From the NCBI RefSeq assembly GCF_902830275.1, contig NZ_CADESW010000001.1, forward strand, positions 248,001 to 312,000: a stretch of 64,000 nucleotides of DNA, given 5' to 3'. Origin of the DNA: Burkholderia stagnalis. GTDB taxonomy: Bacteria; Pseudomonadota; Gammaproteobacteria; Burkholderiales; Burkholderiaceae. A model generated the notes under the pieces. It worked only from the letters and a program-made list of their open reading frames with translations, ran no database searches and was not told the origin of the DNA. Made by a program: the position numbers and the translations under genes. Positions 12,325 to 56,288 of this stretch are shown one piece after another; positions within the stretch are counted from its first letter, which is position 1, and every line of letters begins with the position of its first letter.

Positions 12325-12378
12325 CGTCGGACACCGCCACAGCCGCCGGCCCACGGGCCGGCGCCTGTCGCGCCGCAC

Positions 12379-14505: not shown

Positions 14506-14546
14506 CAACGGAACAACCACCACCTGAAACGTGACGCGCAGGGCTG

Positions 14547-15665: not shown

Positions 15666-15809
15666 TTACGATTCGAATTCCTCGGCATAGGGCGCGCCGC
15701 CCCATTCGAAGGCCGGTCGAATCGGCTCGTTCTTCAGCGCCTCGCGGTACGCCGACAGTACGGCCATGATCACCAATACTGCTGCGCTCGCGATCCAGTG
15801 CATGTCCAT
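15666..15809 (-). CDS. Small single-pass membrane protein, function unknown
   Basis: A 47-residue protein with a hydrophobic stretch at residues 4-20 (HWIASAAVLVIMAVLSA) followed by a charged tail ending PYAEEFES. The ATG at 15809 has AGGAG 8 nt upstream, a strong reason to accept it; the longer frame to 15929 has no such signal. It lies between bceT and bceS, with short non-coding stretches on either side. I do not recognise the family. The position inside the cepacian cluster suggests a possible accessory role, but that is only context. Confidence 0.62.
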   Translation of the reverse strand: MDMHWIASAAVLVIMAVLSAYREALKNEPIRPAFEWGGAPYAEEFES

Positions 15810-16025
15810 CTTGCCGCTCCTTGCATCTATCAACTGGAGCTTCAAACTATCAGAAAAAAATCGACAAATAATTGGCCGCACGCTGAAACCGATATCGGGA
15901 CTGAATAAATCCGCGAGATGGAATGTCATTATTTCAGTGCGCGATTTTTTTATTCATTGAGCGATTTCTTGCGGATTACGATGGAGCGCAACTTCCCCTC
16001 CATTCGTCGCAAGGAACCGAATCGC

Positions 16026-17207
16026 ATGCAAGCATTCAGCGGATCGACTGTGAATGCGCCGCCCGCCGCCGATCACAAGGAGCACGTGATCGACGCGATG
16101 CGCGGCTTCGCGGCGCTGCTCGTCGCCTATTTCCACTGCCGGCAGGTCGTCTGGGTCGGGATGCAAGGCTTTCATCGCGCCTACGGCCATGCGCTCGACC
16201 CGAGCGTGCTCGTCGGCTACCTGACCTTCCCGTTCGCGTGGGGCTCGGCCGGCGTGCCGATCTTCTTCGTGATCAGCGGCTACTGCATCCACCGCAACGC
16301 GTCGCTCAAGCTCGCCGCCGACCCGTCGTACCGGCTGAACGCGCCGAACTTCTGGGCGCGCCGCTTCGCGCGCATCTATCCGGTGCTGCTCGCCGCGCTG
16401 CTGTTCACGCTCGCGCTCGACGCGGTCAGCCTGCAGATCGAGCCCGTCAGCCACAAGATCCGCGACGTCGGCCTGACCGCGTTCCTCGTGAACCTGTTCT
16501 CGCTGCAGGGCGTCGCCGGCTACACGTACGGCTCGAACGGCGCGCTGTGGACGCTGTCGCTCGAAGTGCAGTTCTACGCGATCTATCCGCTGCTGTTCGC
16601 CGTGCGGCGGCGCATCGGCATGCCGGCCGTCGTGGCCGCGGTGGCGCTCGTCAACGTCGCATCGGCCTGGCTGCTCGAACGGCACGACCTGCAGTTCTTC
16701 ACGTCGTACTGGCTGTCGTGGACGATCGGCGCGTGGATCGCCGACGTGCGCGCGCAGCAGTTGCGCCGCGCGGCGCCCGCCGCCGCGCCGTCGCGCGCGT
16801 GGTACGCGGCGGCCGCCGTGCTGCTGGCCGCCGGCTGCGCCGCGTTCCACTTCGGCCAGTACGGCGCGTTCCAGCTGTGGGCGGCCGGCTTCGCGTGCTT
16901 CCTGTACCGTGCGCTCGCCTGTCCGCCGCGCCCGACGCGGCCGCTGAGCGTGCTCGGCTGGTTCGGCGATTTCAGCTATTCGCTATACCTGATCCACCTG
17001 CCGCTGTTCGTCTGCCTCGGCTCGGTGCTGTTCCACTCCGAACTGCAGCTGTCGATCTGGCCGTCGTTCGCGTTCATGGCGCTCGCGATTCCGGTCGCCT
17101 ACCTGTTCTACCGGCTGTTCGAGCTGCCCGCGATGCGCTGGTCGGCGAGCTTCAAGCCGTCGCGCGGCGCGCGCGTCGTCACGCCGACGCCCGAACGCGC
17201 CGCCTGA
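16026..17207 (+). CDS. bceS: Acyltransferase-3 family membrane protein (probable BceS)
   Basis: A 393-residue polytopic acyltransferase. Family signatures are the N-terminal IDAMRGFAALLVAYFHCRQ (near residues 22-40), SAGVPIFFVISGYCIHR near 78-94 and WTLSLEVQFYAIYP near 175-188. Further transmembrane segments run to the C-terminus, and the last helices (FSYSLYLIHLPLF) are typical. AAGGAA about 9 nt upstream supports the ATG at 16026 over the ATG at 15981. It probably O-acetylates cepacian or its lipid-linked repeat unit. It is convergent with bceR, with a terminator for each strand in between. Confidence 0.85.
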   Translation: MQAFSGSTVNAPPAADHKEHVIDAMRGFAALLVAYFHCRQVVWVGMQGFHRAYGHALDPSVLVGYLTFPFAWGSAGVPIFFVISGYCIHRNASLKLAADPSYRLNAPNFWARRFARIYPVLLAALLFTLALDAVSLQIEPVSHKIRDVGLTAFLVNLFSLQGVAGYTYGSNGALWTLSLEVQFYAIYPLLFAVRRRIGMPAVVAAVALVNVASAWLLERHDLQFFTSYWLSWTIGAWIADVRAQQLRRAAPAAAPSRAWYAAAAVLLAAGCAAFHFGQYGAFQLWAAGFACFLYRALACPPRPTRPLSVLGWFGDFSYSLYLIHLPLFVCLGSVLFHSELQLSIWPSFAFMALAIPVAYLFYRLFELPAMRWSASFKPSRGARVVTPTPERAA

Positions 17208-17227
17208 GCGCCCGGCGCGGCACCGAA

Positions 17228-17262
17228 ACCCTCGCACGGCGGATGGCCGTGCGGGGGTTTTT
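17228..17262 (+). terminator. Intrinsic terminator of bceS
   Basis: A 12-bp stem (CCCTCGCACGGC with GCCGTGCGGGGG, one G-U pair) around a short loop is followed by five T. It starts about 20 nt after the bceS stop. Confidence 0.88.
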
Positions 17263-17380
17263 GCTTGTGCGCCGTCACGGCCTGCCGATTTCGCTTTCTT
17301 CGACCAAGCGCCCTTTCGATGCATCGCCGTGCAGCATCGTCAGGCGCGACGCGCACCGACCTTCCCGGCCGTAAGCGGAC

Positions 17381-17421
17381 AAAGACAAAGCCCCCGGAAC
17401 GGCGCATTGCCGCCCGGGGGC
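17381..17421 (-). terminator. Intrinsic terminator of the bceP-bceQ-bceR unit
   Basis: On the minus strand, GGCCCCCGG pairs with CCGGGGGC, with an inner CGG/CCG stem, followed by TTTGTCTTTGTC. It lies about 40 nt beyond the bceR stop and opposes the bceS terminator. Confidence 0.78.
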
Positions 17422-17458
17422 CGATCCGGCATGCCGCATTCATGCGGCCATGCGGGCT

Positions 17459-19924: not shown

Positions 19925-21390
19925 GATGCGGTTCTCCTCGCATTGAGACGGACAAAAAGATCGCGCACGAGCGCGCGCAGGCCCGGCGTCATCGTGAGCG
20001 ACCACGCGACGTTCAGCACCAGCACGACCGCGCAGAGGCCGATCGACTCGACGAGCCCCGGCCACGCCTGCGCGAGAAACAGGCTCGCGAGCAGGAAGGC
20101 GAGATGCGCGGCCATGTCGAGCACGATCGCGCGCATGCGGATCGCCGACAGGTAAAGCAGCACGCCGTAATCGACGAGCGCGCGCGCCGCGACGACCACC
20201 GCCGCGCCGGTCAGCCCGAAGTGATGGATGCCGAACCACAGGCCGCCGACGAAGAACGGCATCTGGACGAGCCCGGCGAACGCCGCGCGGGACGGATTGA
20301 CCTGCGACTGGATCAGGATCCGCGTGACGCTCGCCTGCCCGACGAGCCACACGCTGATCACCAGCACGCGGCCGACCGGCGCCGAATGCGCGGCGAGATC
20401 GGGGCCGACCCACAGCGTCAGGAACGGCGCGAGCGCGAAGATCGCGACGATGCCGACCGGCGTGAACACGCCGTTCAGGAATTCGAGCGACTGCCGCGCG
20501 AGCGTATCGGCGTGCTCGCGGCCGACCGCCGACAGGCGCGGGAACAGCGTGCGCACGAGCGCGTTCGGCAGCATGTTCAGGCGCGTGACGAGGTTCTGCG
20601 GCACCGTGTAATAGGTGACGAACTTCGCGCCCATGCCCGCGCCGAGCATCACGCGGTCGAGCGTGTCGGCGATCATGCTGGTCGTGCTCGCGATCAGCAT
20701 CCAGCCGCCGAAGTTGAACAGCCCCTTCGCGGTGCCCCACTGCGGCGGATCGATGCGGCGGATGCCGAGCACCTTCAGGCTCGCGTGGCCGAGCATCACC
20801 GCCGCGACCAGCCGCGCGACCACCGCGGCGGCCAGCACCGTCTGCAGGTTCGGCGCGATCCACCACGCGGCGCCGAGCGGCAGCAGCTGGAACAGGAACG
20901 TGCCGATCGTCTGGTTCGTGTTGAACACGCCGAAGCGCTCGGCGCCGTTGATCGCGCCGGCGAACACCCACGACACGTTCGCGAGCGGAATCGCGAGCGC
21001 GAGCCACGGCAGCGCGAGATACACCTCGTGCTGCATCTCGGCCGACACCTTCGTGAAATACGCGGTGTAGACGAACGCGCCGAAGTAGATCAGCAGCCCG
21101 CCCACGATGCCGGTGCCGAGGTTCAGCCAGAACGCGCTCCAGAACACGCGCGCGCTTTCGGCGTCGTTGCCGCTCGCGAGCGCCTTCGAGATGTGGTTCT
21201 GCGCGGCCATGCTCATCCCGAGATCGAGGATCCCGAAATAGCCGATCAGCGTCCACACGAGGCTGACCACGCCGTAGCGCTCGACGCCGAGCGCGTGGAT
21301 ATACGCAGGCACCGTCACCAGCGACACGAAGGTCGGCAGGATCAGCCCGATGAAATTGATCGAAACGTTCTTGAGAATGCCTTTGTCCAT
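19921..21390 (-). CDS. bceQ: Wzx-type polysaccharide flippase (BceQ)
   Basis: A 489-residue membrane protein of the PST/MOP exporter superfamily with about 12-14 hydrophobic segments spread through its whole length. It begins with KNVSINFIGLILPTFVSLVTVPAYI, the usual first helix of Wzx-like proteins, and QNLVTRLNMLPNALVRTLFPRLS in the middle is typical. The expected role is to flip the undecaprenyl-linked repeat unit across the inner membrane. It is coupled to bceR by an ATGA overlap and starts 36 nt after the bceP stop, so bceP-bceQ-bceR form one operon. Confidence 0.88.
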   Translation of the reverse strand: MDKGILKNVSINFIGLILPTFVSLVTVPAYIHALGVERYGVVSLVWTLIGYFGILDLGMSMAAQNHISKALASGNDAESARVFWSAFWLNLGTGIVGGLLIYFGAFVYTAYFTKVSAEMQHEVYLALPWLALAIPLANVSWVFAGAINGAERFGVFNTNQTIGTFLFQLLPLGAAWWIAPNLQTVLAAAVVARLVAAVMLGHASLKVLGIRRIDPPQWGTAKGLFNFGGWMLIASTTSMIADTLDRVMLGAGMGAKFVTYYTVPQNLVTRLNMLPNALVRTLFPRLSAVGREHADTLARQSLEFLNGVFTPVGIVAIFALAPFLTLWVGPDLAAHSAPVGRVLVISVWLVGQASVTRILIQSQVNPSRAAFAGLVQMPFFVGGLWFGIHHFGLTGAAVVVAARALVDYGVLLYLSAIRMRAIVLDMAAHLAFLLASLFLAQAWPGLVESIGLCAVVLVLNVAWSLTMTPGLRALVRDLFVRLNARRTAS

Positions 21391-21426
21391 GCTTCCGCCT
21401 TGTGCCGGGTGACGACGCGCCGCCCG

Positions 21427-23643
21427 TCACGGTTTCCAGCGATACATCAGCACCTTGCCGCGCGCGTCTTCCTCGACGAACACGAGGTACTCGCCGTTCT
21501 CGCGCCGGTACGCGCTGATGCCGAACGGCACGTCGACCCAGCCGGATGCCCGGCCGACCTCCGGCCCCGGGTTCATCACGCCGAGCTCCTTGCCGCTTTC
21601 CTTGTCGTACACGTGGATCTTGCCGACCGGTTCCACCGCGAACAGGTAGCGGCCCTCGACCGTGATCCCGGCCAGCGTGAGGATCGGCTTCGCGTCCGGC
21701 TGCCACGGCAGCGCGATCGTGTAGCGCGCGACCGGCGAGCCGGTCGACCACTTGTCGAAGCGGGTCAGCACGCGCCCCACTTCCTTGTTGATGCCGGGCT
21801 GCGGCGGCGCGTCCGGCGTGTAGCCGGTCACGTACAGCGTGTCCGTCTGCGGCTCGTAGAGCGCGCGGCGCAGCTGCGTGAACGGCTGCGGCATCGGGTA
21901 GGTCGTGACCTTGTCGTACGCATAGATCGGGTTGCCGGCCTTGTCGACGCCGCCGTAACGGAACCGGTGGATGCCGCGCACGTCGCTCGTGCGCCAGATG
22001 TCGCCCTTCGTGTCGACCCACCAGCCCCAGCCGCCCGCCTTCGCCTTGCCCGTCGTGTTGATGTCGAACTCGTCGGCGTCGAGCCGGCCGTTGCCGTTCG
22101 CGTCGCGCCACATCCAGTCGCCGCCCGGCGGCTTGTTCGGCACCTTGTCGACCGGCCGCGCGCGGCCGGCGATCAGCCCCGACGGAATCGCCACCTCGCC
22201 GTCGCGCTTCGCGTCGAAGCGGTAGATCTTCAGGTGATCCGCGTACATGTCGGTCAGGTACAGGAACGTGCGGCCGTCGAGGCGGCGCGCCATCGGCGTG
22301 CCCGGCCACTGGTCGACGTGGAACACCGGATCGTCCGGATACTTGAAGCGGTTCGACAGGAAGCCCGCGTATTTCCATTCCTGGCCGGCCGGCTTCGACA
22401 GGTCGAGCTCGAAGCGCTTGTTGCCCGTGTAGACGCTGTTCGGCCGCGCGGGGTCGACCCACGCGCCGTCGACGAACAGCAGCCCCTGCACCTGCCAGCG
22501 CAGCTTGCCGTCCGGCGCATAGCTCTCGAGCACCGCGCCGAGCCCCGCGCCGATCGTGTCGTGGCGCGGCCCGATGCCGTTGGTCGCGACGTAGAGATTG
22601 CCGGCGCGGTCGACGCCGACGCCGGTCAGTCCGTTGAAGCGCTGCGGCCCCGGCCGGCCCGGCACCGGGCCCGCGAAGATGCCGCCGCGCTCGCCGAACG
22701 TGCTGGCCAGCGCATAGCCCTTGTCGCCTTTCGCGAAGATCAGGATCTGCTGGCGCGGGCCGTTGTCGGCAACCAGCACGCGGCCCTTCGCATCGACCGT
22801 CACGTCGACCGCTTCGGCGTTCTCCGGCAGCGCGGGCGCGTCGTCGATCCGGCGGCCGTCCGCGCGGACGTGCGCGAGACGCGCGGGCCCGCTCACCGTA
22901 TCCGTGAGCAGCCACAGCGTGCCGTCGCCCGCGAGCGCGATGCGGCCCGGCTCGTGCGCGTTCCACGCGCCCTTCTTCTGCATCGTCTCGGCGTCGTACA
23001 CGACGACTTCGTCATGCGACGGATTGGTCGCGAACAGCGTCCGGTCGTCGGCCGCGAGGCCGCCGACTTCCGCCTTCAGCTCGCCCGCATCCGGCTTCGC
23101 GGCGGCCGGCACTTCGTTGAGCATCATGAAGCTCGCGGCCATCCGCGCGCGGCCGGCGTCCGCCCGGCCGCCCGCCGCCACCTGCGGCGCGGAGCGAAAC
23201 GGCGCGGCCTGCTTCGTGTCGCCGAGCGTGCGCCGCGAGATGCCGAACCATTGCTTGCCCTTCTCCGGCCAGATGCCGGGCGACACGAGATGGCCGCGCT
23301 CGTTGCCGACGCCGATCGCGACATACGCATACTTGCCGTTCACCGCGACCGCATTGCCGCCGAGATTGCCCCAGCCGTGCGTGCCGCCGGCGAAGCCGAG
23401 CATCTTGCCGTCCTGGTAGACGCTCGCTTCCGCGCCGCTCTCGTCCCACGGCGCATTCGTATACACCTTGCCGTCGGGCGTCACCGCGATCGCGCGGATG
23501 TCGATCTGCGTCCAGGTGCCGTCGCCATAGCCGAACGTGTTGCCGATCCACGAGGTCGTCGCGGGCAACACCGTTTCGGCCGGCGCGGCGCACGTCAGCA
23601 GCGCCGCGCACACCGCCATGCCAGCCAGTATCAGACGTCGCAA
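21427..23643 (-). CDS. bceP: Exported propeller-like protein with an EF-hand loop (BceP)
   Basis: A 738-residue secreted protein of unknown function. I place the start at the TTG 23643: GGAG lies about 6 nt upstream, and it yields a clean Sec signal (RR, hydrophobic core LILAGMAVCAALLTC, cut after APA). The upstream ATG at 23694 has no ribosome binding site. The body contains several NHL/propeller-like strands (VTVDAKGRVLVADNG, GVGVDRAGNLYVATNG). One canonical EF-hand loop, DANGNGRLDADE, falls at residues 514-525 and should bind calcium. It heads the bceP-Q-R operon. A periplasmic or surface role in polymer processing is possible but not shown by the sequence. Confidence 0.78.
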   Translation of the reverse strand: MRRLILAGMAVCAALLTCAAPAETVLPATTSWIGNTFGYGDGTWTQIDIRAIAVTPDGKVYTNAPWDESGAEASVYQDGKMLGFAGGTHGWGNLGGNAVAVNGKYAYVAIGVGNERGHLVSPGIWPEKGKQWFGISRRTLGDTKQAAPFRSAPQVAAGGRADAGRARMAASFMMLNEVPAAAKPDAGELKAEVGGLAADDRTLFATNPSHDEVVVYDAETMQKKGAWNAHEPGRIALAGDGTLWLLTDTVSGPARLAHVRADGRRIDDAPALPENAEAVDVTVDAKGRVLVADNGPRQQILIFAKGDKGYALASTFGERGGIFAGPVPGRPGPQRFNGLTGVGVDRAGNLYVATNGIGPRHDTIGAGLGAVLESYAPDGKLRWQVQGLLFVDGAWVDPARPNSVYTGNKRFELDLSKPAGQEWKYAGFLSNRFKYPDDPVFHVDQWPGTPMARRLDGRTFLYLTDMYADHLKIYRFDAKRDGEVAIPSGLIAGRARPVDKVPNKPPGGDWMWRDANGNGRLDADEFDINTTGKAKAGGWGWWVDTKGDIWRTSDVRGIHRFRYGGVDKAGNPIYAYDKVTTYPMPQPFTQLRRALYEPQTDTLYVTGYTPDAPPQPGINKEVGRVLTRFDKWSTGSPVARYTIALPWQPDAKPILTLAGITVEGRYLFAVEPVGKIHVYDKESGKELGVMNPGPEVGRASGWVDVPFGISAYRRENGEYLVFVEEDARGKVLMYRWKP

Positions 23644-45934: not shown

Positions 45935-46002
45935 GATCCGTCTATCCGATGGGTGGGCCGGCACTCAGCCGGCGCACGTCGACAAGGTTCCGGCGCCGCG
46001 CG

Positions 46003-46146
46003 TCACTCGGCGGCGCGCTTGATCGCATTGCCGGCCGCGTTCACGTCCTGGCCGAAGCCCGCGACGGTGTTGCAGCCCGCGAGGCCGAACAGGAGCCCCG
46101 CCAGTGCCAGCATGCCGGCCAGCCGGCCGATGATCGATGCGTTCAC
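46003..46146 (-). CDS. Entericidin A/B-family small lipoprotein
   Basis: A 47-residue protein encoded between leuC and leuD, too short for usual ORF cut-offs. It starts at a GTG (46144-46146) three nt after the leuC stop, with GGGG about 6 nt upstream. The N-terminus is a lipoprotein signal with lipobox LAGC (Cys at residue 25), and the mature part NTVAGFGQDVNAAGNAIKRAA is the entericidin signature. Entericidins are envelope lipoproteins linked to an antidote/toxin pair in E. coli; function in Burkholderia is untested. Location inside the leu operon means it is co-transcribed with leucine genes. Confidence 0.85.
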   Translation of the reverse strand: MNASIIGRLAGMLALAGLLFGLAGCNTVAGFGQDVNAAGNAIKRAAE

Positions 46147-46149
46147 GCG

Positions 46150-47559: not shown

Positions 47560-48289
47560 GGGTATGCGGGGTCGTTGTGACTTCAAGGCTTGCGGATGCG
47601 GTCGATTATGCCACGCAGATCGCGCTCCGGCGCAGGCAAAGCGCGAAAAAACCCATTAAAAACAGTGGTTTGGCTGGTAGTGGCAATACCTGTATCGGTA
47701 TTACCCGGCAGGGGGCGGTGGCGAACCGCGGCAGAAGCGGGCAAGACTCGCCGCCCGGTCCGAGACGAGAAACGGGTGCTTCCCGCAAAGGCCTGCACCC
47801 CATTATCGGGAAAAGGCAGCGACGGCTCGATATCGCGACTCATCAGCACGGCGCGATCTTGCAGGTCTCATGCAAAGAGCCGAATAGGCGTCACAGATTC
47901 CTCGCAATTTTCGATCGACTTGATTTCACGTGCGACGCCGGACCATTTCAACGCGCGGATTTTCACGAGCATCACACTGCGCACCGGAAAGTACCGAAAG
48001 GTGAACTTTTTCAATTACGCCGCCCTGAAAGCGACCGATTTTGTTAGCATGCGGACCGCTTGCCGTATCGCGTCCCGGCTGCAAGCGACGTGGGCCGGCC
48101 ACGGTTGCCCTGCTTTAAAGGCGCAGGCCACGGGCGGATCGATATTCGAATCCGTCCATGGAATAGCGCAATAACGTTCAAAATGATAATCAAACCGAGA
48201 GAAAGAAAGGCGCCCTGTTTCATCGAATACTTTGCGCCTGATATCCATTCCGCCGAAGTCCGTCATCGCCTTTCAAGGCCGAGAATCGC
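47560..48289 (+). other. Divergent intergenic region between leuC and the lipid operon
   Basis: About 730 nt containing promoters for both directions. An open frame from 47490 to 48047 has no domain, no ribosome binding site and poor protein character. One dyad symmetry (separate entry) and a short TGATAATCA palindrome at 48184-48192 are the only structures I see. Confidence 0.5.
47685..47702. promoter_or_regulatory. Candidate operator dyad upstream of leuC
   Basis: AATACC-TGTATC-GGTATT is a perfect 6-bp inverted repeat with a 6-nt centre, 126 nt upstream of leuC. It could be a site for a LysR-type or other dimeric regulator. No regulator gene adjoins it. Confidence 0.35.
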
Positions 48290-49321
48290 GTGCCGCGTTC
48301 ACGCATGACCGCGCGCATCCCGCTTCCACCGTTCCCCGCCATGCTGCCCATCCAGATCATCTGCACCGGCAAGGCGCTGCCGTCGCGGCGCGTCTCGTCC
48401 AGCGCGCTTGACGCGTTGCTCAAGCACCCGCCGGGTTTCTCGCGCAAGAAGTCGGGCATCGACGTCCGCTACTACGCCGAAGATGCCGAAACGCAATCCG
48501 GGCTTGCCGCGGCCGCGCTGCGCGACGCGCTGCACCGCGGCCAGGTCGCCCCCGCGTCGATCGACCTGCTGCTGTCCGCGTCGGGCGTCGGCGAGCAGGC
48601 GCTGCCCAGCACCGCGAGCCGGATTCTCGGGCCGGCCGGGCTGCCGGCCGGCACCGCCGCGTTCGACGTGAACGCGAGCTGCCTGAGCTTCGTCGTCGCG
48701 CTGCAGGTCGCGGCGAGCCTGCTCGCGAGCGGCGCGTACCGGCGCATCGCGATCGTCGCGTCGGACCTTGCGTCGCGCGGCATCGACTGGAACGACCCGG
48801 AAGCATCGCTGATCTTCGGCGACGGCGCGGCCGCCGCGATCGTCGAGCGCGGCGATGCGGCCACCGGCATCGAGGCATTCCGGATGGAAACCTATCCCGC
48901 CGGCAACGCGTTCTGCGAGATTCGGGCGGGCGGCACGCGCCGCAATCCACGCAACGGCGCCGAGCCGGCCGACTACCTGTTCCGGATGGACGGCAAGCGC
49001 GTGTTCCGGCTCGCGTCGACGGTAATCGGCGGCTTCCTCGAGCAGCTGTTCGGCGGCAACGCGCGCGCAGCGCGCGACGTCGACGTCGTGATCCCGCATC
49101 AGGCGAGCCACCTCGCGATGGAACACATTCGCAAGCGTCTCGGCATGCGCCCCGACTCGCTCGTCGACATCTATGCGCAGCACGGCAACCAGGTCGCGGC
49201 ATCGATCCCGACCGCGCTGCACGAAGCGATCGAGCAGGGACGCTTCACGCGCGGCACCCGCGCGCTGCTGATCGGCACCGCGGCCGGACTGACGGTGGGC
49301 GGAATGGTGCTCGTCGCATGA
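48290..49321 (+). CDS. 3-oxoacyl-ACP synthase III-family condensing enzyme (FabH/OleA-like)
   Basis: A 343-residue thiolase-fold enzyme. The Cys-His-Asn triad is visible: C131 in VNASCLSF, H270 in VIPHQASH and N300 in QHGNQVAASIP. Unlike OleA it has no Glu directly before the Pro of the LPSTAS segment, so a standard condensation is as likely as head-to-head chemistry. The start is taken at the GTG 48290 with GAGA close by; ATGs at 48305 and 48341 are alternatives. It heads a seven-gene unit and overlaps the next gene as ATGA. It would initiate or condense fatty acyl chains. A housekeeping FabH is unlikely here because no fab gene is adjacent. Confidence 0.88.
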   Translation: MPRSRMTARIPLPPFPAMLPIQIICTGKALPSRRVSSSALDALLKHPPGFSRKKSGIDVRYYAEDAETQSGLAAAALRDALHRGQVAPASIDLLLSASGVGEQALPSTASRILGPAGLPAGTAAFDVNASCLSFVVALQVAASLLASGAYRRIAIVASDLASRGIDWNDPEASLIFGDGAAAAIVERGDAATGIEAFRMETYPAGNAFCEIRAGGTRRNPRNGAEPADYLFRMDGKRVFRLASTVIGGFLEQLFGGNARAARDVDVVIPHQASHLAMEHIRKRLGMRPDSLVDIYAQHGNQVAASIPTALHEAIEQGRFTRGTRALLIGTAAGLTVGGMVLVA

Positions 49322-50331
49322 AGATCCTCGTCACCGGCGCGACGAGCGGGCTCGGCCGCAACGCCGTCGACGCACTGCTGGCGGACGGCCGCGCCGTGCG
49401 GGCAACCGGCCGCAATCTCGAAGCGGGCGACGCGTTGCGCGCGGCCGGCGCGGAGTTCGTGCCGGCGGAACTCGCAACGCTCGACGACGCGCAGGCCGAC
49501 GCGCTGCTGCGCGACGTCGACGCGGTGTGGCACTGCGCGGCGCTGTCGTCGCCGTGGGGCCGGCGCGACGACTTCGTCGCGTCGAACGTGACCGCGACCC
49601 GCCGGCTCGCGCAAGCCGCCGCCGCGCGCGGCGTGCCGCGTTTCGTGCACGTATCGACGCCGTCGATCTACTTCGACTACCGGCATCACCGCGACATCGA
49701 CGAGTCGTATCGCGCCGCGCGCTTCGTGAATCACTACGCGGCGACCAAGGCGCAGGCCGAAGACGAACTGTGCGCGCTCGCCGGCGCGCATCCCGGCACG
49801 ACCTTCGTGCTGCTGCGCCCGCGCGGGCTGTTCGGCCCGCACGACCGCGTGATCGTGCCACGCATCCTGCAGCTGCTGCACGCGCGACGCGGCGTGCTGC
49901 CGCTGCCGCGCGGCGGCGCCGCGCTCGTCGACCTGACCTACGTCGGCAACGTCGTGCATGCGCTGCGGGTCGCGACGCATGCGCAGGTCGCATCGGGCGC
50001 CGCGTTCAACATCACGAACTTCGAGCCGTGCACGCTCGCGTCGCTGCTCGCGCGCCTGCTCGGCGACGCGCTGCAGCTGCGCTACCGGATCCGCGCGCTG
50101 CCGTATCCGCTCCTGGACGCGCTCGCGCGCGTCTCCGAGCTGGGCGGCTACGTGCGCGGCCGCGAGCCGCTGCTCACGCGCTACGGGATCGGCGCGCTCC
50201 ATTTCGACATGACGCTCAGCAACGCACGCGCCGCCGCGCTGCTCGGCTACCGGCCGCCGTTCTCGATCGACGACGGCATTCGTCTCACCGCGGACTGGAT
50301 TCGTACGCATGGCAACCATTACGGCCTTTGA
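49318..50331 (+). CDS. 3-beta-HSD/NAD-dependent epimerase-family reductase (OleD-like)
   Basis: A 337-residue extended short-chain dehydrogenase. Cofactor loop GATSGLG (residues 7-13), catalytic Y140 and K144 in HYAATKAQ, and the substrate-region sequence STPSIYFD with LLRPRGLFGPHD. This is the family of OleD, which reduces 2-alkyl-3-ketoalkanoates to beta-hydroxy acids in olefin/beta-lactone pathways. Following a ketoacyl synthase III, it plausibly reduces the beta-keto product. It overlaps its upstream neighbour by 4 nt and the downstream gene by 23 nt. Confidence 0.87.
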   Translation: MKILVTGATSGLGRNAVDALLADGRAVRATGRNLEAGDALRAAGAEFVPAELATLDDAQADALLRDVDAVWHCAALSSPWGRRDDFVASNVTATRRLAQAAAARGVPRFVHVSTPSIYFDYRHHRDIDESYRAARFVNHYAATKAQAEDELCALAGAHPGTTFVLLRPRGLFGPHDRVIVPRILQLLHARRGVLPLPRGGAALVDLTYVGNVVHALRVATHAQVASGAAFNITNFEPCTLASLLARLLGDALQLRYRIRALPYPLLDALARVSELGGYVRGREPLLTRYGIGALHFDMTLSNARAAALLGYRPPFSIDDGIRLTADWIRTHGNHYGL

Positions 50332-51115
50332 AGCAGGCTACTGCACCCATCCCGGCTGCGTCGCGCTGCGCGGCGCCGGCTTCTCCGCGTGCGCGTTCCC
50401 GTCGCGCTGCTACCTGCTGCAGGCGAACGGCCGGCGCTGGCTGTGGGACACCGGCTACGCGTCGCACTTCCTCGACCACACGCGGCGCGGCGTGTTCGCG
50501 CTGTACCGCAAGGTGACGCCCGTGTACTTCGACGCCGCCGACGCGATCGCCGCGCAGCTCGCGCGCGAAGGCCTGCGGCCCGCCGATCTCGACGGCATCG
50601 TGGTGTCGCACTTCCACGGCGACCACATCGCGGGCCTGCGCGACTTCCCGGACGTGCCGATGATCTGCTCCGGGGACGGCTGGCGCGCGACGCGCCCGCT
50701 GCGCGGCATCGCGGCGCTCAGGCGCGGCTTCGTGCCGGGCCTGATGCCGGACGACTTCGACACGCGCGCGCGCTTCGTCGAGAGCTTCGAGCGCGTCGCG
50801 CTGCCCGCGGAACTCGCGCCGTTCGAGCACGCCTACACGCTGCCGAATGCCGGAGGCGACATCCTGCTGGTCGAGTTGCCCGGCCACGCGGCGGGCCATC
50901 TCGGCGCGTTCGTCGCGACCGACAGCGGCTGGGTGCTGCTCGCGTCGGATTCGGCATGGTCGCCGCAGGGCTACCGCGAGCCGCGCGGACCGTCGCGGAT
51001 CGCGCACCTGATCATGGACGATCCGCGCGCCTATTACGCGACGCTCGACCGGCTGCATCGGCTCGACGCCGGCGGCCGCGCGACGATCCTGCTCACGCAC
51101 GAGGGCGCACTGTGA
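50309..51115 (+). CDS. Metallo-beta-lactamase-fold hydrolase
   Basis: A 268-residue MBL-superfamily protein. Zinc ligands HFHGDH are at residues 101-106, with later ligands in LPGHAAGHLG, ASDSAW and LLTHEG. This subfamily hydrolyses lactones, thioesters and similar bonds. In this operon it could release an acyl product or open a lactone, in the position that OleB (an alpha/beta hydrolase) occupies in Ole clusters; that comparison is an inference. GGATT lies about 8 nt before the ATG, inside the preceding gene. Confidence 0.85.
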   Translation: MATITAFEAGYCTHPGCVALRGAGFSACAFPSRCYLLQANGRRWLWDTGYASHFLDHTRRGVFALYRKVTPVYFDAADAIAAQLAREGLRPADLDGIVVSHFHGDHIAGLRDFPDVPMICSGDGWRATRPLRGIAALRRGFVPGLMPDDFDTRARFVESFERVALPAELAPFEHAYTLPNAGGDILLVELPGHAAGHLGAFVATDSGWVLLASDSAWSPQGYREPRGPSRIAHLIMDDPRAYYATLDRLHRLDAGGRATILLTHEGAL

Positions 51116-52416
51116 TGCAGCCGCACCGCCTGCTGTGGGCCTACGCCCGCACCCGCACGCGCCGCTTCGCGGACCGCACGGCGCTCGAGCGCCACCAGGC
51201 GCGCGGGCTCGACCGCTTCGCACGCACCGTGCTCGCGCGCAGCCCGTGGTTCGCGCCGTACGCGAGCCAGCCGCGCGACGCATGGCCGCTGATGGACAAG
51301 GCGGCGATGCTCACGCGTTTCGATACGATGAACACCGCGGGGCTGACGCTCGACGAGGTGCTCGCGTGCGCGCATCGCGCCGAGCAGTCGCGCGACTTCA
51401 GCCCGATGCTCGGGCACTACAGCGTCGGCCTGTCGTCGGGCACGTCCGGCAGCCGCGGCGTGTTCGTCGCGAGCCCGGCCGAGCGCGCGACATGGGCCGG
51501 CGTGCTGCTCGCGAAGCTGCTGCCGCAGGGGCTGCTGCATCGCGAACGGGTCGCGCTGTTCCTGCGCGCGAACAACCGGCTGTACACGGCGGTGCGCACG
51601 CCGTGGCTGTCGTTCGCGTTCTACGACCTGTTCGAGCCGTTCGAGTCGCTGGTCGCGCAGCTCGACGCGTACCGGCCGACGATCGTCGTCGCGCCGGCCC
51701 AGGTGCTGTGCTCGCTCGCGCTCGCCGTGCGCGAGGGCCGGCTGGCCGTGCGCCCGGCTCGCGTCATCGCGGTCGCCGAAGTGCTGGAGCCGCTCGACCG
51801 CGTGCTGCTGGCCGAAACGTTCGGGCGCGTCGACGAGGTCTACCAGGCGACCGAGGGCTTCCTGGGCGCGACGTGCACGCACGGCACACTGCACCTGAAC
51901 GAGGAATTCCTCCACGTAGAACCGCAGTGGCTCGACGACACGCGCTTCGTGCCGGTCATCACCGATTTCACGCGGTCCACACAGCCGATCGTCCGCTACC
52001 GGCTCGACGACGTGCTCGCGGTGCGCCGCGCGCCCTGCCCGTGCGGCAGCCCGGCGCTCGCGATCGAGCGGATCGAGGGACGCTGCGACGACATGCTGGT
52101 GCTGCCCGGCCGCGACGGGACGCCGCGCACCGTGTTCGCCGACGTGTGCGCGCGGGCGCTCGCGCAGGCGCTGCCGCTGCACGCCGACTACCGGCTGACG
52201 CAGACGGCGCCGGCCGCGCTCACGCTCGCGGTCGACACGGGCGCGGACGGCGCGGCGTCCGGCACGCTCGCCGCCTGCCGGCAGCATCTCGTCGACGTGT
52301 TCGCGCGGCTCGGCGTCGCCACGGACGCGCTCACGTGGACACTGAGCCCGGCCGTGCCCGCACGCGACTTCACGCAGAAGCGGCGCCGCATCGTCCGCGC
52401 GAAGGAGGCGCGATGA
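51115..52416 (+). CDS. PaaK/F390-synthetase-like adenylate-forming enzyme
   Basis: A 433-residue AMP-forming ligase-type enzyme of the phenylacetate-CoA ligase/CoF synthetase group, shorter than standard acyl-CoA ligases. The ATP loop is SSGTSGSRG (residues 107-115). Later motifs are YQATEGFLGATC, TDFTRSTQPIVRYRLDD and CPCGSPALAIERIEGRCDDML. It would activate a carboxylic acid as an acyl-AMP; the substrate is unknown. The ATG overlaps the previous stop as TGATG with GAGGG 10 nt upstream. Confidence 0.84.
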   Translation: MQPHRLLWAYARTRTRRFADRTALERHQARGLDRFARTVLARSPWFAPYASQPRDAWPLMDKAAMLTRFDTMNTAGLTLDEVLACAHRAEQSRDFSPMLGHYSVGLSSGTSGSRGVFVASPAERATWAGVLLAKLLPQGLLHRERVALFLRANNRLYTAVRTPWLSFAFYDLFEPFESLVAQLDAYRPTIVVAPAQVLCSLALAVREGRLAVRPARVIAVAEVLEPLDRVLLAETFGRVDEVYQATEGFLGATCTHGTLHLNEEFLHVEPQWLDDTRFVPVITDFTRSTQPIVRYRLDDVLAVRRAPCPCGSPALAIERIEGRCDDMLVLPGRDGTPRTVFADVCARALAQALPLHADYRLTQTAPAALTLAVDTGADGAASGTLAACRQHLVDVFARLGVATDALTWTLSPAVPARDFTQKRRRIVRAKEAR

Positions 52417-53015
52417 TCACGCTGCCGCCGCGACTGCGCGCGATGGCGCTCGGCTGGGGCGCGGTCGGCGCCGCCTATACCCTGTCCGGCGTCCTGCAGG
52501 GCCCCGGGACGGTGCTCGCCGAAAGCGCGCTCGACCGGCTCGTCCCGTTCGACCCGCGCGGCGTGTGGCTCTACCTGTCGTTCTTTGCGCTGATCCCGTA
52601 CGCGTATCTTCGTGCGGACGCCGCGCGCGTGCCGTGGCTGATGCGCGCGATGCAGTTCAGTGCGCTCGCGTCCGGCATCGTCTTCGTGCTGTTCCCGACC
52701 ACGCTGCATTACCCGCCGGTCGGCGGCACGTCACCGAGCGCCGTCGCGCTGCGGCTCCTCGCGGCGGGCGATTCCGCGCAGAACTGCCTGCCGTCGCTGC
52801 ACGCGGCACTGACCTGCCTCGCCGCACGCGCGCTGGTCGACGCACGCCGCCCATGGCGCAGCGCGCTCGTCGTGCTGTGGAGCGCGGCGATCACCTGCTC
52901 GATCGTACAGACGCGCCGCCACCTGGCGCTCGACATTTCAGCGGGCGTGCTCGTCGCGCTCGTCTGCGGGATGCTCGCCGCAAGGCTGCCCGCGTTCTCC
53001 CGGAGGCTGACCTGA
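52413..53015 (+). CDS. PAP2-family membrane phosphatase
   Basis: A 200-residue integral membrane protein with about five to six hydrophobic segments. The phosphatase motifs are NCLPSLHAALT (the C2 Ser-His) and TRRHLALDI (the C3 Arg-x-x-His-x-x-x-Asp), as in lipid phosphate phosphatases and inositol-phosphoceramide-type PAP2 proteins. It should dephosphorylate a lipid phosphate or transfer a phospho-head group at the membrane. GGAGG lies 4 nt before the ATG. ATGA overlap with the gene before and TGATG with the gene after. Confidence 0.85.
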   Translation: MITLPPRLRAMALGWGAVGAAYTLSGVLQGPGTVLAESALDRLVPFDPRGVWLYLSFFALIPYAYLRADAARVPWLMRAMQFSALASGIVFVLFPTTLHYPPVGGTSPSAVALRLLAAGDSAQNCLPSLHAALTCLAARALVDARRPWRSALVVLWSAAITCSIVQTRRHLALDISAGVLVALVCGMLAARLPAFSRRLT

Positions 53016-54127
53016 TGAATGTGTTCGCTTTACCGCTCGCCGTGATGCTGGCGCTCGTCGTCGCCGACGTGGCCGGCCTGCGCTGGCTGCGCGGGCAGCG
53101 CGCGCCGTGGCGCGACGTGATCTTCAACCTGAATTCCGGGCACATCGTGCTGTGGCTGTTCCGCGGCGTCGAGGTCGCGGTGTTCGCGTGGCTGTCCGCA
53201 CACGCGAACCTGCACTGGGTCGACCGGCTCGGCACGCCCGGCGTGTGGATCTTCACGTTCTTCGCATGGGATTTCTGCTTCTACTGGTTGCACCGGCTGC
53301 ATCACAAGATCCCGCTGATGTGGGCGGTCCATGTCGTCCACCACGAAGGCGAGCATTTCAACCTGTCGCTCGGCGTGCGCAATTCCTGGTACTCGTCGCT
53401 CACGTCGATCCCGTTCTTCGCGGGCCTCGCCGTGCTCGGCGTGCCCGTCGAGGCGTTCGTGCTGGTGGGCGGGTTCCACTATTCGGTGCAGTTCTACAAC
53501 CATAGCGGCACGATCTACCGGTCCGGCTGGCTCGACCGCTTCTTCGTGACGCCGGCGAACCACCGGGTCCATCACGGCCTGAACCCGGAATACATCGACA
53601 AGAACTTCGGCGGCACGCTGCTGATCTGGGACAAGCTGTTCGGCACCTACCAGCCCGAGCTGCCGCACGCGCCGATCCGCTACGGCGTGCATGATGCGGT
53701 GCGCACCGACAACCCGTTCTGGGCAAGCAACATCCCGCTACTGCGCTACCTCGGGCTCGCGACGCCCCGGCTGCCCGCGCGCGATCCGCTGCGGCTCGGC
53801 GACGGCTGGATCGCGATGGGCGGGCTCGCGCTGTTCGCGGTCGTCATCTATTACGTGCACCGGCAAGGCACGTTCCCTGCGCCGCAGGAGCCGCTGCTGT
53901 TCGGCTGGATCGCCGCGCAGACGATCGCGCTCGGCGCGCTGTCGGACGGACGCGCGTGGGCGCGCGCCGCATGGAGCACCGCGGCGCTCGCTATGCCGCT
54001 CTGCTTCGTCGGCGGGTTCGGCTGGCGCGACCCGCTCGGCTGCGCGCTCGTCGCGCTGGTCGGACTGCACGGCGCCGCCTGCCTGTTCGCGCGCGAGCGG
54101 CACCGCACGATGCTCGGAGCACGCTGA
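53015..54127 (+). CDS. Fatty acid hydroxylase/sterol desaturase-family membrane oxygenase (alkylglycerol monooxygenase-like)
   Basis: A 370-residue membrane di-iron enzyme. The histidine boxes are HRLHH near residue 91, HVVHHEGEHFN near 107 and NHRVHHG near 184. The WAVHVVHHEGEHFNLSLGVRNSW stretch resembles alkylglycerol monooxygenase rather than carotenoid or sterol enzymes. Six or more hydrophobic segments run through the protein; the last third adds four. It likely hydroxylates an alkyl chain or cleaves an ether-type lipid. GGAGG lies 8 nt upstream. Confidence 0.87.
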   Translation: MNVFALPLAVMLALVVADVAGLRWLRGQRAPWRDVIFNLNSGHIVLWLFRGVEVAVFAWLSAHANLHWVDRLGTPGVWIFTFFAWDFCFYWLHRLHHKIPLMWAVHVVHHEGEHFNLSLGVRNSWYSSLTSIPFFAGLAVLGVPVEAFVLVGGFHYSVQFYNHSGTIYRSGWLDRFFVTPANHRVHHGLNPEYIDKNFGGTLLIWDKLFGTYQPELPHAPIRYGVHDAVRTDNPFWASNIPLLRYLGLATPRLPARDPLRLGDGWIAMGGLALFAVVIYYVHRQGTFPAPQEPLLFGWIAAQTIALGALSDGRAWARAAWSTAALAMPLCFVGGFGWRDPLGCALVALVGLHGAACLFARERHRTMLGAR

Positions 54128-55239
54128 TGGACCCGCGGCCCGCCACCCGCGTGTGGCCCGAAGGCACGCCGCCGTTCGACGCCGAGCTGCGCGCCGCATC
54201 CGCCGCCTACCTGCGCGGGGCGGACGACCACCGCTACGCGGACGCGCGGCAGTGGCTCAAGGGCGCCGCCCTGCTGACCGCCGCGCTTGGCGCAGGCGGT
54301 TTCGCGCTGACGGCCGGCGGCCCGGCGCGCTTCGCGCTCGGGTACGTCGCGTTCGTGATGCTGTTCGCGGTGCTCGCCATCAACTTCATGCACGACGCCG
54401 CGCACGGCACGCTGATCGGACCGCCTCGCGTATCGCCCACCTCGGGCCGCCGGCTGAACGCGTGGATCGCGCGCGCGGTCACCGTGCCGCTCGGGATCGA
54501 GCCGGCGTACTGGCGCGTGCGCCACATCGCATTTCATCACCCGTACGCGAACATCGAGGGCCGCGACCTCGATCTCGAGGAAAACTTCTTCCTGTGCCAG
54601 ACGCCGTTCCAGACACGTCGCCCGCACCATCGCTACCAGCACCTGTATTGGCCGCTGATCGCGGCACTGTCGATGCCGTACATCGGCTGGATCTACGACT
54701 GGTCGGATCGGCTCGGCAAGACGCCCGTCGCGCGGCACCGCCCGCTGCCCGGCGTGCGCGGCTGGCTCGTGTTCGTCGGCGCGAAGCTCGCGCACTTCGC
54801 GCTGATGCTTGCGCTGCCCGTCTGGGTCCTGCACGGCATGGGGGTCGGATGGGGCAGCGTCGTTGCCGCCTACGTGCTCGCGCAGATGTGCGCGTCGTGC
54901 TTCGTCGTCGGGCTGCTGCTCGGCACCCACTGGGCCGACGTCGCGTTCTACCGCGCGCCCGACTGCGAACCGCTGCCGCACGGCTGGCGCGAGCACGGGC
55001 TGCATACTGCCGTCGACTGGCTGCCCGAGCCGCGCTGGCTCGCGTTCTGGCTCGGCGGGCTGCACCGTCACGCGACCCATCATCTGTTCCCGACCTGGCA
55101 CCATCGCCACTGCGATGCACTCGCGGCACTCGCCGCGCCGATCGCCGCACGCCACGGCGTGCCCTATCGGGTGCTCACCTACCGGGAGCTGATCGTCGCG
55201 CAGCGGCGGTTCCTGAAGCACATGGGCGGCGCGGACTGA
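54127..55239 (+). CDS. Membrane fatty acid desaturase
   Basis: A 370-residue desaturase with three histidine boxes: HDAAHG near residue 90, HIAFHH near 137, and HRHATHH near 316. It has about four to five membrane segments. It introduces a double bond into an acyl chain at the membrane. The long N-terminus carries no signal. It is the last gene of the seven-gene unit, joined to the hydroxylase by a TGATG overlap. Confidence 0.88.
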   Translation: MDPRPATRVWPEGTPPFDAELRAASAAYLRGADDHRYADARQWLKGAALLTAALGAGGFALTAGGPARFALGYVAFVMLFAVLAINFMHDAAHGTLIGPPRVSPTSGRRLNAWIARAVTVPLGIEPAYWRVRHIAFHHPYANIEGRDLDLEENFFLCQTPFQTRRPHHRYQHLYWPLIAALSMPYIGWIYDWSDRLGKTPVARHRPLPGVRGWLVFVGAKLAHFALMLALPVWVLHGMGVGWGSVVAAYVLAQMCASCFVVGLLLGTHWADVAFYRAPDCEPLPHGWREHGLHTAVDWLPEPRWLAFWLGGLHRHATHHLFPTWHHRHCDALAALAAPIAARHGVPYRVLTYRELIVAQRRFLKHMGGAD

Positions 55240-55550: not shown

Positions 55551-56288
55551 ATGGAACAGATGAGCCACGACGACGAGCAGAACAAGCCCCGACGAAACAC
55601 GCACGCCGGCCGACGACCGGACGCGCCTGCGGAACCGCAGCCGGGCGAAGGCCCGCGCACGCTGACCGAGCGCGGGCGCCAGACCGTCGCCCGCATCCTG
55701 GCGAGCGCGATCGACATCTTCGTGAAGGAAGGCTACGGCGGCCTGAGCATGCGCAAGGTGGCGACGAGCGCCGGCCTGGCGCTGTCGAACCTGCAGCACT
55801 ACTTCCCGTCCCGCGAAGACCTGTTTGCGGCCATCATCACGGAAACCATCGCGACGTATTCGCGCTCCTACGACGGCATCCGGACCGACGCGACACTGTC
55901 GCCGGAAGCGCGGCTGGAAAAGGTCGTGCGGCTGCTGATCGAGGATGGCAAGCTGCCCCGGACCCAGAGCCTGTTCGTGAACATCCAGGCGCTGGCCCAC
56001 ACGCACGAATTCGCGCGCAAGAGCGTGGAGGACGCGTACCAGTTCCAGCGCCGCGTGATCGGCGCGTTCGTGTCGGACGTGAACCCCGACCTGACGCCGC
56101 TCGAACTGTCGCGCAGGGCCGCGCTGATTACCTGCCAGATCGAGGGGCTGTTCGTGCTGATCCCTCAGCGCAACCGGTTTCCGTCGGACATCAAGGGGAT
56201 CGAGGACGAAGCGGTGAAGGCCATCGTGGCGCTCGTGCGCGCGCCGGGCGAACGCAGCGCGGCAGCGAAGCCGAAGGCGGCCCGATAG
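55551..56288 (+). CDS. TetR-family transcriptional regulator
   Basis: A 245-residue protein with a basic, disordered N-terminus (about 35 residues). The TetR helix-turn-helix follows (TVARILASAIDIFVKEGYGG, then LSMRKVATSAGLALSNLQHYF near 65-85). The C-terminal half is a helical ligand/dimer domain. The start is ambiguous: ATG 55551 has AGGAAA 14 nt upstream, ATG 55560 has GGA 5 nt upstream, and 55470 would lengthen it further. It lies downstream of the lipid operon on the same strand and 28 nt short of a convergent reductase. It may control either neighbour. Confidence 0.88.
   Translation: MEQMSHDDEQNKPRRNTHAGRRPDAPAEPQPGEGPRTLTERGRQTVARILASAIDIFVKEGYGGLSMRKVATSAGLALSNLQHYFPSREDLFAAIITETIATYSRSYDGIRTDATLSPEARLEKVVRLLIEDGKLPRTQSLFVNIQALAHTHEFARKSVEDAYQFQRRVIGAFVSDVNPDLTPLELSRRAALITCQIEGLFVLIPQRNRFPSDIKGIEDEAVKAIVALVRAPGERSAAAKPKAAR

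Follow-up and report, generated by a model that had tools for sequence, protein, structure and literature searches.

Gene content and boundaries of the operon

Seven overlapping open reading frames, all present on the + strand, extend from position 48290 (or 48341) to 55239 of the window, the 64,000-nt stretch of Burkholderia stagnalis DNA that was analyzed as a whole. At 99.2% identity over 17 kb, its source is B. stagnalis or a very close relative. The genes and the region preceding them are as follows.

48165..48340, + strand: conserved leader or possible promoter region, starting with the block that is 95% identical in B. ubonensis L051 and G420 (L155)
48290..49321, + strand: KAS, ketosynthase III (PF08541/PF08545), with in-frame starts GTG 48290, ATG 48305, and ATG 48341
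49318..50331, + strand: SDR, extended short-chain dehydrogenase, 3beta-HSD/OleD-like (PF01370, PF01073)
50309..51115, + strand: MBL, metallo-beta-lactamase-fold hydrolase, lactonase-like (PF00753)
51115 (or GTG 51112)..52416, + strand: F390 synthetase-related/PaaK-like adenylate-forming enzyme (TIGR02304)
52413..53015, + strand: PAP2_3-family membrane protein, putative lipid phosphotransferase or phosphatase (PF14378)
53015..54127, + strand: FA_hydroxylase/sterol-desaturase-family membrane oxygenase (PF04116, 102 bits)
54127..55239, + strand: membrane fatty-acid desaturase (PF00487, 82 bits)

The start of KAS is uncertain among its three in-frame candidates. The first-pass annotation had described seven genes joined by overlaps of 1, 4, or 23 nt, and all the ORFs and overlaps were confirmed; in gene order the overlaps are 4, 23, 1 (4 if the ligase starts at GTG 51112), 4, 1, and 1 nt. 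Pfam agreed with the gene families given there except for two details: the ligase is PaaK-like as described, though it lacks a Pfam match, including one to PF00501, and belongs to TIGR02304, and the phosphatase falls into PAP2_3 and not into the main PAP2 family. GC3 was 0.90–0.95 and dN/dS, calculated against B. ubonensis L051 and Cupriavidus basilensis L052, was 0.13–0.33 in all seven genes. Escherichia coli LF82 carries all seven genes in the same order, with 41–61% protein identity to those of the window. These values and the gene order in LF82 exclude chance ORFs.

The conserved unit may start around 48165, where the 95% DNA-identity block of the two other carriers begins. No sigma-70 consensus was found in 48165..48340, and promoter and terminator scans gave nothing above chance. 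The downstream TetR gene (55551-56288) was rejected as a member of the operon in Burkholderia, since the similarity of L051 and G420 stops at 55234; this boundary considers only DNA matches of more than 150 bases, and the L051 sequence runs 7 kb further. TetR genes adjoin the four-gene core described below in Ketogulonicigenium, Paracoccus, and Rhizobium.

A four-gene core and an exchangeable tail

The operon was compared among 84 loci, which comprise the window, the best 80 of 567 ligase relatives in genome contigs, and three named records (L047, L048, and L050); loci cut by contig ends were counted as found. Since the best 80 of 567 were taken, close relatives are over-represented in the counts. 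Within this set, the core order KAS-SDR-MBL-F390-like ligase was kept in 81 of the 84 loci, PAP2, hydroxylase, and desaturase genes lay near the core in 61, and all seven genes stood in the order of the window in 56. In 9 of the 84 loci, two of which (L047 and L048) have a sulfotransferase, the surroundings of the core showed none of PAP2, tail A, and tail B; thus, the core product may function without membrane tailoring. A core gene is split in 2 of the 81 loci (KAS in L084 and MBL in L053), and SDR is split in L153. The core order is kept in the alphaproteobacteria Ketogulonicigenium, Paracoccus, and Rhizobium, in four further genomes, in two plasmids of Bacillota, where an ATP-grasp gene separates KAS from SDR, and in a Pseudomonas megaplasmid, where it spans ~10 kb with unrelated genes interspersed. 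Homology of the four core genes was confirmed with the window proteins for L156, L157, and L160-L164.

The core is combined with finishing sets of at least four kinds, the alternatives to the tail of the window being GT21- and MGT-like glycosyltransferases, a sulfotransferase, and ATP-grasp plus GNAT with or without a Rieske protein. The unit is a four-gene core with an exchangeable three-gene tail (4 + 3), and seven genes as a fixed unit were rejected because tails are exchanged among loci. The single seven-gene pathway of the first-pass annotation therefore survives as a real, conserved lipid-type operon but not as a fixed unit (core in 81 of 84 loci, all seven genes in 56). A second tail type contains a 193-aa gene without a family match, in which a GSCGL motif noted by eye suggests an alpha/beta hydrolase or acyltransferase.

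Among 5,426 complete E. coli genomes, 672 (about one in eight) carried the operon, and in all four chromosomes that were opened (LF82, JJ1886, ATCC 25922, and Nissle) it lies behind narGHJI, between narI and tRNA-Tyr. E. coli K-12 MG1655 has no copy at this site. The E. coli carriers include a probiotic strain.

The core enzymes and the products they may form

The catalytic residues of KAS are nearly invariant (C114 in 80 of 81 family members, H253 and N283 in 81 of 81). Its best NCBIfam model is PRK07204, at 356 bits under the cut-off of 402, and it scored 206 bits against the FabH model TIGR00747, whose cut-off of 292.1 was not reached. Of the CoA-binding Trp/Arg pair of FabH, all 33 operon KAS proteins compared lack the Arg, and 4 of 33 keep the Trp. 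The closest solved relatives are MxnB (285 bits) and CorB (278), followed by FabH (at most 243) and OleA (~92). In a tree, the split between the operon KAS proteins with MxnB/CorB on one side and FabH and OleA on the other had a support of 86/87, with a program warning of long branches at this point, and the support for the operon KAS proteins as a single group was only 70/34. The affinity to MxnB/CorB is uneven: identity to these two was 29–39% in the six proteins compared, and the KAS of L130 is nearer to FabH (36% and 33%) than to MxnB/CorB (32%). Because of this unevenness, the absence of the FabH Arg, and the tree support of 70/34, the KAS substrates cannot be read from the sequence.

If KAS extended an acyl chain with malonyl-ACP, the core could yield a simple 3-hydroxy-fatty-acid amphiphile of a rhamnolipid-like kind (an ester, glycolipid, sulfate, or amino-acid conjugate), in which SDR would reduce the chain, MBL would release the acid, and the F390-like enzyme would couple it. 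MBL-fold enzymes are able to release acyl chains, and the glycosyltransferase, sulfotransferase, and ATP-grasp tails are compatible with such a product, as are the FabH-type Cys-His-Asn residues and the L130 protein. However, the CoA-binding Arg of FabH is missing in all 33 proteins compared, and since normal fatty acid synthesis supplies 3-hydroxyacyl-ACPs, there would be no need for a KAS and an SDR of their own. We consider this product unlikely, although it is the best placed of the alternatives.

The proximity of KAS to MxnB and CorB raises another candidate, a diffusible signal or antibiotic such as an alpha-pyrone or other ring built from two acyl chains, as by MxnB, CorB, and PpyS, which the tail would merely adjust. 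The operon KAS proteins have a Q-A-[LV]-P stretch in common with MxnB/CorB, and the FabH CoA-binding Arg is absent in both. According to PMC4901931, such chain-joining enzymes, which link two chains, evolved from ketosynthases of the FabH type, MxnB and CorB acting on the myxopyronin and corallopyronin antibiotic chains; the seven genes of the operon include no polyketide synthase. The low identity to them and the membership of the three tail enzymes in membrane-lipid families argue against a diffusible product, and pyrones would need neither a reductase nor an adenylating enzyme. We consider it unlikely, slightly more so than the amphiphile.

The best NCBIfam model of SDR is OleD (NF042422), at 145 bits, far short of its cut-off of 580 (exceeded by a protein in 3 of 200 genomes searched), and S113, Y140, and K144 are kept in 83 of 83; SDR is OleD-like at the superfamily level only, as judged from these scores. 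The best NCBIfam and PDB relatives of MBL are 4-pyridoxolactonase and AHL lactonases. Its dinuclear metal site is complete (HxHxDH in 80 of 81; H193, D214, and H264 in 81 of 81) and its predicted model has a pLDDT of 87.7, whereas the best lactonase-model score was 51.8 bits against a cut-off of 325, not reached. The ligase is a full TIGR02304 member (513.2 bits, cut-off 251.9) with its motifs S107-x-G-T-S111, TEG 246-248, GR 322-323, and K422 in 84 of 84, and its matches to PaaK structures were weak and partial in coverage (E 2e-11 or worse). No TIGR02304 member with a described function was found in the open-access literature, among the matches listed. Genes annotated in this way appear in three reports. 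PMC9823363 lists a transposon mutant in a 'Coenzyme F390 synthetase' for Pseudomonas syringae pv. actinidiae, with no link to the present operon implied; PMC5467263 lists a gene of COG1541 for P. aeruginosa ATCC 27853; and PMC2649909 mentions a gene annotated as F390 synthetase within a candidate ladderane cluster whose content differs.

The first-pass annotation had drawn a parallel between these four genes and OleA, OleD, OleB, and OleC. A convergent pathway of this type would condense two acyl-CoAs head to head, reduce the product, form a beta-lactone with the PaaK-like enzyme, and open or decarboxylate it with MBL, giving a beta-lactone, an olefin, or a 2-alkyl-3-hydroxy acid. The parallel holds in part, in that a thiolase-fold condensing enzyme, an extended SDR reductase, and an adenylate-forming enzyme are encoded together, with OleD as the top SDR model and lactonases as the nearest named MBL relatives. 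KAS itself was rejected as OleA-like; in addition to the score of ~92 bits against 285 for MxnB, the column of the OleA channel glutamate (Glu117 of Xanthomonas OleA) holds Leu in 78, Ile in 2, and a gap in 1 of the 81 family members, whereas Glu occupies it in the OleA of L149 (632 bits to 3fk5). SDR falls far below the OleD cut-off, and the gene order is unlike that of the OleABCD-type cluster L149. OleB is an alpha/beta-hydrolase and OleC an AMP-binding ligase; the MBL and TIGR02304 matches bear out the earlier remark that hydrolase and ligase come from other families. A hydrocarbon would, moreover, offer the alternative tails little substrate. An Ole-type product is accordingly doubtful, more so than the diffusible one. 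A catabolic or lipid-remodelling operon that dismantles an external lipid is very unlikely: hydrolases, dehydrogenases, and ligases are found in degradation too, but KAS condensation is synthetic, genes for beta-oxidation and transport are absent among the seven, and the tail has a desaturase and a hydroxylase.

Tail enzymes and a predicted membrane lipid

The PAP2 protein scored 35.3 bits for PAP2_3 (PF14378; cut-off 27), the family of AUR1-type ceramide phosphotransferases, and 19.8 for PF01569 (cut-off 27.2), and it keeps the catalytic His/His/Asp (PSLH130, H170, and D174) in 68 of 68. Its profile matched AUR1 best in the PDB, weakly (E 8e-4 over 64 positions), and PgpB at 0.03; the E. coli version gave a weak match to phosphoinositol dihydroceramide synthase (20.7 bits, cut-off 480). 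The AlphaFold model is nearly all helical (pLDDT 94.5). Judging from these matches, it may transfer a head group instead of acting as a phosphatase. Among named NCBIfam models, the hydroxylase matched OlsE alone, at 60 bits far under the cut-off of 475, and ornithine-lipid synthesis genes are absent among the seven. Nine clustered histidines of the hydroxylase (H93, H96, H97, H106, H109, H110, H183, H186, and H187) are kept in 63 of 63, and the histidine boxes of the desaturase (H89/H93, H133/H137/H138, and H315/H318/H319) in 62 of 62; a profile search found no solved relatives of either enzyme. The suggestion of the first-pass annotation that the last three genes tailor a membrane lipid thus agrees with their families, but the dephosphorylation given there for the PAP2 protein may instead be a head-group transfer, AUR1 being slightly nearer than the phosphatases.

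We propose, with a probability of roughly one half, that a membrane lipid derived from fatty acids is built by the core of the operon and then modified by its tail; the predicted product is best read as a membrane lipid that contains no serine and is either sphingolipid-like or of a beta-hydroxy-acyl type. KAS would join an acyl thioester to another thioester (acyl, beta-ketoacyl, or malonyl), and SDR would reduce the beta-ketone to a beta-hydroxyl. The thioester, or alternatively a lactone, would be cleaved by MBL, and the carboxylate would be converted by the F390/PaaK-like enzyme into an acyl-adenylate for transfer. The core output would be a long lipid, possibly with two chains, bearing a free hydroxyl. 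The hydroxylase and desaturase may then alter the chain within the membrane, while the PAP2_3 protein may place a phospho-head group onto the hydroxyl or remove a phosphate. In other bacteria, the core occurs with the other finishers, namely glycosyltransferases, a sulfotransferase, or ATP-grasp and GNAT with or without a Rieske protein.

This membrane-lipid reading is favored by the conserved core order and the near-invariant catalytic residues in the loci compared, by the three tail enzymes of membrane-lipid families, by alternative tails of kinds that decorate a hydroxyl or carboxylate, and by the AUR1 and dihydroceramide-synthase matches of PAP2. Counting against it are the weakness of these two matches, the ambiguity of the KAS substrates, the lack of an acyl carrier protein among the seven genes, the absence of solved relatives for the hydroxylase and desaturase profiles, the 9 loci in which the core showed no such tail, and the split core genes of L084, L053, and L153. 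The tail logic would resemble sphingolipid tailoring, since AUR1-type PAP2_3, FA_hydroxylase, membrane desaturase, and GT21 are the broad families that include the ceramide head-group transferase, hydroxylase, desaturase, and glucosyltransferase, whereas a serine palmitoyltransferase-type enzyme is absent among the seven. To our knowledge, E. coli makes no sphingolipid. We found no description of this gene content in the open-access literature, among the matches listed, in line with the earlier statement that no described pathway was recognized.

A broader proposal is tentative, and we regard it as improbable, if less so than any of the alternatives above: the operon may stand for a whole class of membrane lipids that has gone unrecognized in bacteria, with a sphingolipid-like architecture but started by a FabH-type ketosynthase in place of serine palmitoyltransferase, with one core and interchangeable modules, in Pseudomonadota and Bacillota and, unnoticed, in about one-eighth of complete E. 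coli genomes. Its backbone would be two-chain and hydroxylated, followed by chain hydroxylation, desaturation, and a phospho- or glyco-head group. If the product is a membrane lipid, E. coli, a standard laboratory and probiotic species, carries a pathway for it in those 672 genomes. The modular design, if correct, would make the operons a family of biosynthetic clusters to mine, would give TIGR02304 its first function, and would show how sphingolipid-like molecules can be made when serine palmitoyltransferase is lacking.

Structure and coding potential of the operon

The window aligns to the Burkholderia stagnalis YJ-2 record with 99.2% identity over 17.3 kb, which places it in this species or very close to it. 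The operon comprises seven + strand genes running from 48290 (or 48305/48341) to 55239, which overlap successively by 4, 23, 1, 4, 1 and 1 nt. GC at third positions was 0.90–0.95 in every gene, and comparison of the window with Burkholderia ubonensis (L051) and Cupriavidus basilensis (L052) gave dN/dS of 0.13–0.33 for all seven. The ORFs, overlaps, third-position GC and dN/dS thus bear out the overlapped seven-gene operon proposed in the first-pass annotation. A TetR-family regulator gene lies just 3' of the operon at 55551–56288, a place where neither of the other Burkholderia carriers compared (two) has similar DNA.

The proteins were assigned to families by Pfam and NCBIfam searches. Residues were counted over family members in 84 loci, namely the window, LF82, Ketogulonicigenium, Paracoccus and the best 80 of 567 ligase relatives confirmed by a profile scan of genome_contigs with a six-sequence ligase alignment. 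The retention of the catalytic residues, together with the low dN/dS, points to a working enzyme set, not a relic.

Families of the seven proteins (all + strand, in gene order) and residues retained in the loci (best 80 of 567 relatives plus four)
KAS: KAS III, PF08541/PF08545; best model PRK07204, 356 bits, under its cut-off of 402; Cys114 80/81, His253 81/81, Asn283 81/81
SDR: extended SDR, PF01370/PF01073; OleD model 145 bits against a cut-off of 580; Ser113, Tyr140, Lys144 all 83/83
MBL: MBL hydrolase, PF00753; several of the top models are lactonases, none over its cut-off; HxHxDH 80/81; H193, D214, H264 81/81
Ligase: TIGR02304 F390 synthetase-related protein, 513 bits (cut-off 251.9); S107, G109-T-S111, TEG, GR, Lys422 84/84
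PAP2: PAP2_3, 35.3 over a cut-off of 27; main PAP2 family under its cut-off; PSLH130, H170, D174 68/68
Hydroxylase: FA_hydroxylase (Pfam/NCBIfam)
Desaturase: FA_desaturase (Pfam/NCBIfam)

The four-gene core and its tails

KAS, SDR, MBL and ligase stand in this order in 81 of the 84 loci (best 80 of 567 plus four), and two of the 81 have a split core gene (MBL in L053, KAS in L084). The three loci outside this count are a contig of 5.8 kb that breaks off inside the ligase (L062) and two with SDR-MBL-ligase and no KAS at the usual place (L059 and L061); a desaturase occupies that place in L059. In the same set of best 80 of 567 plus four, PAP2, hydroxylase and one or two desaturases are all near the ligase in 61/84 loci, and all seven genes keep the window order in 56/84. 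Thus, of the seven-family operon described at first, the core held while the tail varies. The desaturase lies upstream of the core instead in four loci (L059, L070, L072, L101). A PF10118 'Metal_hydrol' gene was observed 3' of the PAP2–hydroxylase pair at L070 12958–13908, L101 13035–13904 and L059 12988–13881, the hosts being Paraburkholderia, Comamonas and Burkholderia sp.

A second tail, present in 8 of these 84 loci (best 80 of 567 plus four) and combined with the first in 3 of the 8, consists of a GT21-family glycosyltransferase resembling HpnI and a further OleD-like SDR, joined in most cases by an orphan protein and an MGT-like glycosyltransferase. The orphan protein (~190 aa; L095 13433–14011, relatives in L085, L097 and L121) has conserved GSCGL and GHM motifs, and no credible family was found for it in Pfam or NCBIfam. 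By the same count over the best 80 of 567 plus four, 6/84 loci have PAP2 only, 3/84 an incomplete first tail (at a contig end in two cases) and 9/84 no PAP2 and no tail of either type nearby; of these nine, L047 and L048 have a sulfotransferase.

Other finishing sets were also found. In Ketogulonicigenium and Paracoccus the core adjoins sulfotransferase and TetR genes, and on Paraburkholderia, Rhizobium and Roseateles plasmids it is accompanied by genes identified as ATP-grasp and GNAT-like through annotation or weak Pfam matches, joined by a Rieske protein gene on the latter two. On two Bacillota plasmids, an ATP-grasp gene separates KAS from SDR. On the Pseudomonas megaplasmid pBASL58 (L164) the core order is kept over ~10 kb (12004–21937) with unrelated genes between, and window proteins matched all four core genes in 7/7 plasmid regions (L156, L157, L160–L164). 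On pMPPla107 the ligase is flanked by hypothetical proteins, and a KAS lies ~18 kb away. Since the core order is kept while the finishing sets differ, gene order argues strongly that the enzymes of the core act together and that the tail finishes their product.

Distribution in Escherichia coli and Burkholderia

Using the ligase as a query against a plasmid collection, the operon was detected in E. coli. Of 5,426 complete genomes of E. coli, 672 matched the SDR gene and 671 carried 80% or more of the operon's 6,882 bp, as judged by length. All four chromosomes opened (LF82, JJ1886, ATCC 25922 and a Nissle derivative) are annotated with the seven genes in window order, immediately 3' of narI and followed by tRNA-Tyr and purU; in K-12 MG1655 the interval from narI to tyrT contains no operon. 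NRG 857C, clone D i14 and O25b:H4-ST131 strains were listed as further carriers, and we take the E. coli carriers to be mostly of phylogroup B2. A record deposited as phage (L159, ON470620.1) encodes at 5965–7014 a ybjS-annotated E. coli-type protein with 49% identity to the window SDR; ybjT, amidase, ybjQ, ybjP and artP genes accompany it, with P2-like tail genes alongside. The region probably derives from the host, and a free-standing paralogue of the core SDR may thus persist in E. coli.

Of 37 genomes from the same genus, counting that of the window, 3 have a TIGR02304 protein over the cut-off, indicating a patchy distribution in Burkholderia. In 10/10 non-carriers checked, similarity to the window ends just upstream of leuC, at 47705–47716; in carrier G420 it also breaks there and restarts with the operon ~3.4 kb further on. 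The conserved unit in two other Burkholderia carriers opened is 48165–55234. Between leuD and leuC, ~200 bp (~45942–46148) common to ten non-carrier genomes are absent from two carriers, B. ubonensis (L051, L137) and G420 (L145, L155). Across the phylum, the ligase is over the cut-off in 7 of 398 genomes; the core is also present in G171, whose ligase is over the cut-off, and in three opened genomes with a below-cut-off ligase (G050, where SDR is split, G131 and G373).

Placement of the KAS and the proposed product

When solved structures were ranked with a four-sequence KAS profile, MxnB scored 285 bits, CorB 278, FabH 243 and lower, and OleA ~92; the reference OleA from an OleABCD-type cluster (L149) scored 632 bits to 3fk5. 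The Glu of this OleA is Leu or Ile in 80 of 81 operon KAS, with one gap (best 80 of 567 plus four), which, with the low OleA score, speaks against the earlier proposal that the first gene parallels OleA by role. The Arg of FabH in the column compared, which we take to be the CoA-binding Arg, is absent in 33/33 operon KAS compared and likewise in MxnB and CorB. In the KAS tree, the operon KAS fall on one side of a weakly supported branch (70/34), and are grouped with MxnB/CorB against FabH and OleA at 86/87, where the program warns of long branches meeting. Six operon KAS showed pairwise identities of 29–39% to MxnB/CorB and 25–36% to FabH, one of them (L130) being nearer to FabH. Judged from profile ranking, residues, tree and identities, the operon KAS appears to derive from FabH and to have some affinity to MxnB/CorB. 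PMC4901931 describes MxnB and CorB as enzymes that link two acyl chains, and chain joining by the operon KAS is plausible by analogy.

Among solved relatives, the PAP2 profile matched AUR1 (inositol phosphorylceramide synthase) best (E 8e-4), followed by the phosphatase PgpB (0.03). The E. coli PAP2 protein scored 20.7 bits (E 2.2e-4; cut-off 480) with the model for phosphoinositol dihydroceramide synthase, a weak match. These PAP2 matches, taken with FA_hydroxylase, the membrane desaturase and, at other loci, the GT21 glycosyltransferase, recall sphingolipid tailoring. The operon differs from sphingolipid synthesis in lacking a gene of the serine palmitoyltransferase type, and sphingolipids are not known to be made by E. 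coli; the lipid backbone would therefore come from the core enzymes. The favoured product is a serine-free, β-hydroxylated, possibly two-chain membrane lipid that would receive a head group, and we give a probability of about 0.5 to this reading in its general form. A sphingolipid-like backbone would be its bolder and less likely form.

Among the papers listed from 5.39 million open-access articles, none was found to describe the cluster, in agreement with the initial view, which recognised no described pathway of such content. All enzyme families are known except the orphan tail protein, and the enzyme combination and modular design appear undescribed. The operon appears to belong with the ketosynthase-led lipid clusters, a known kind; less probably, its product would be a new lipid class.
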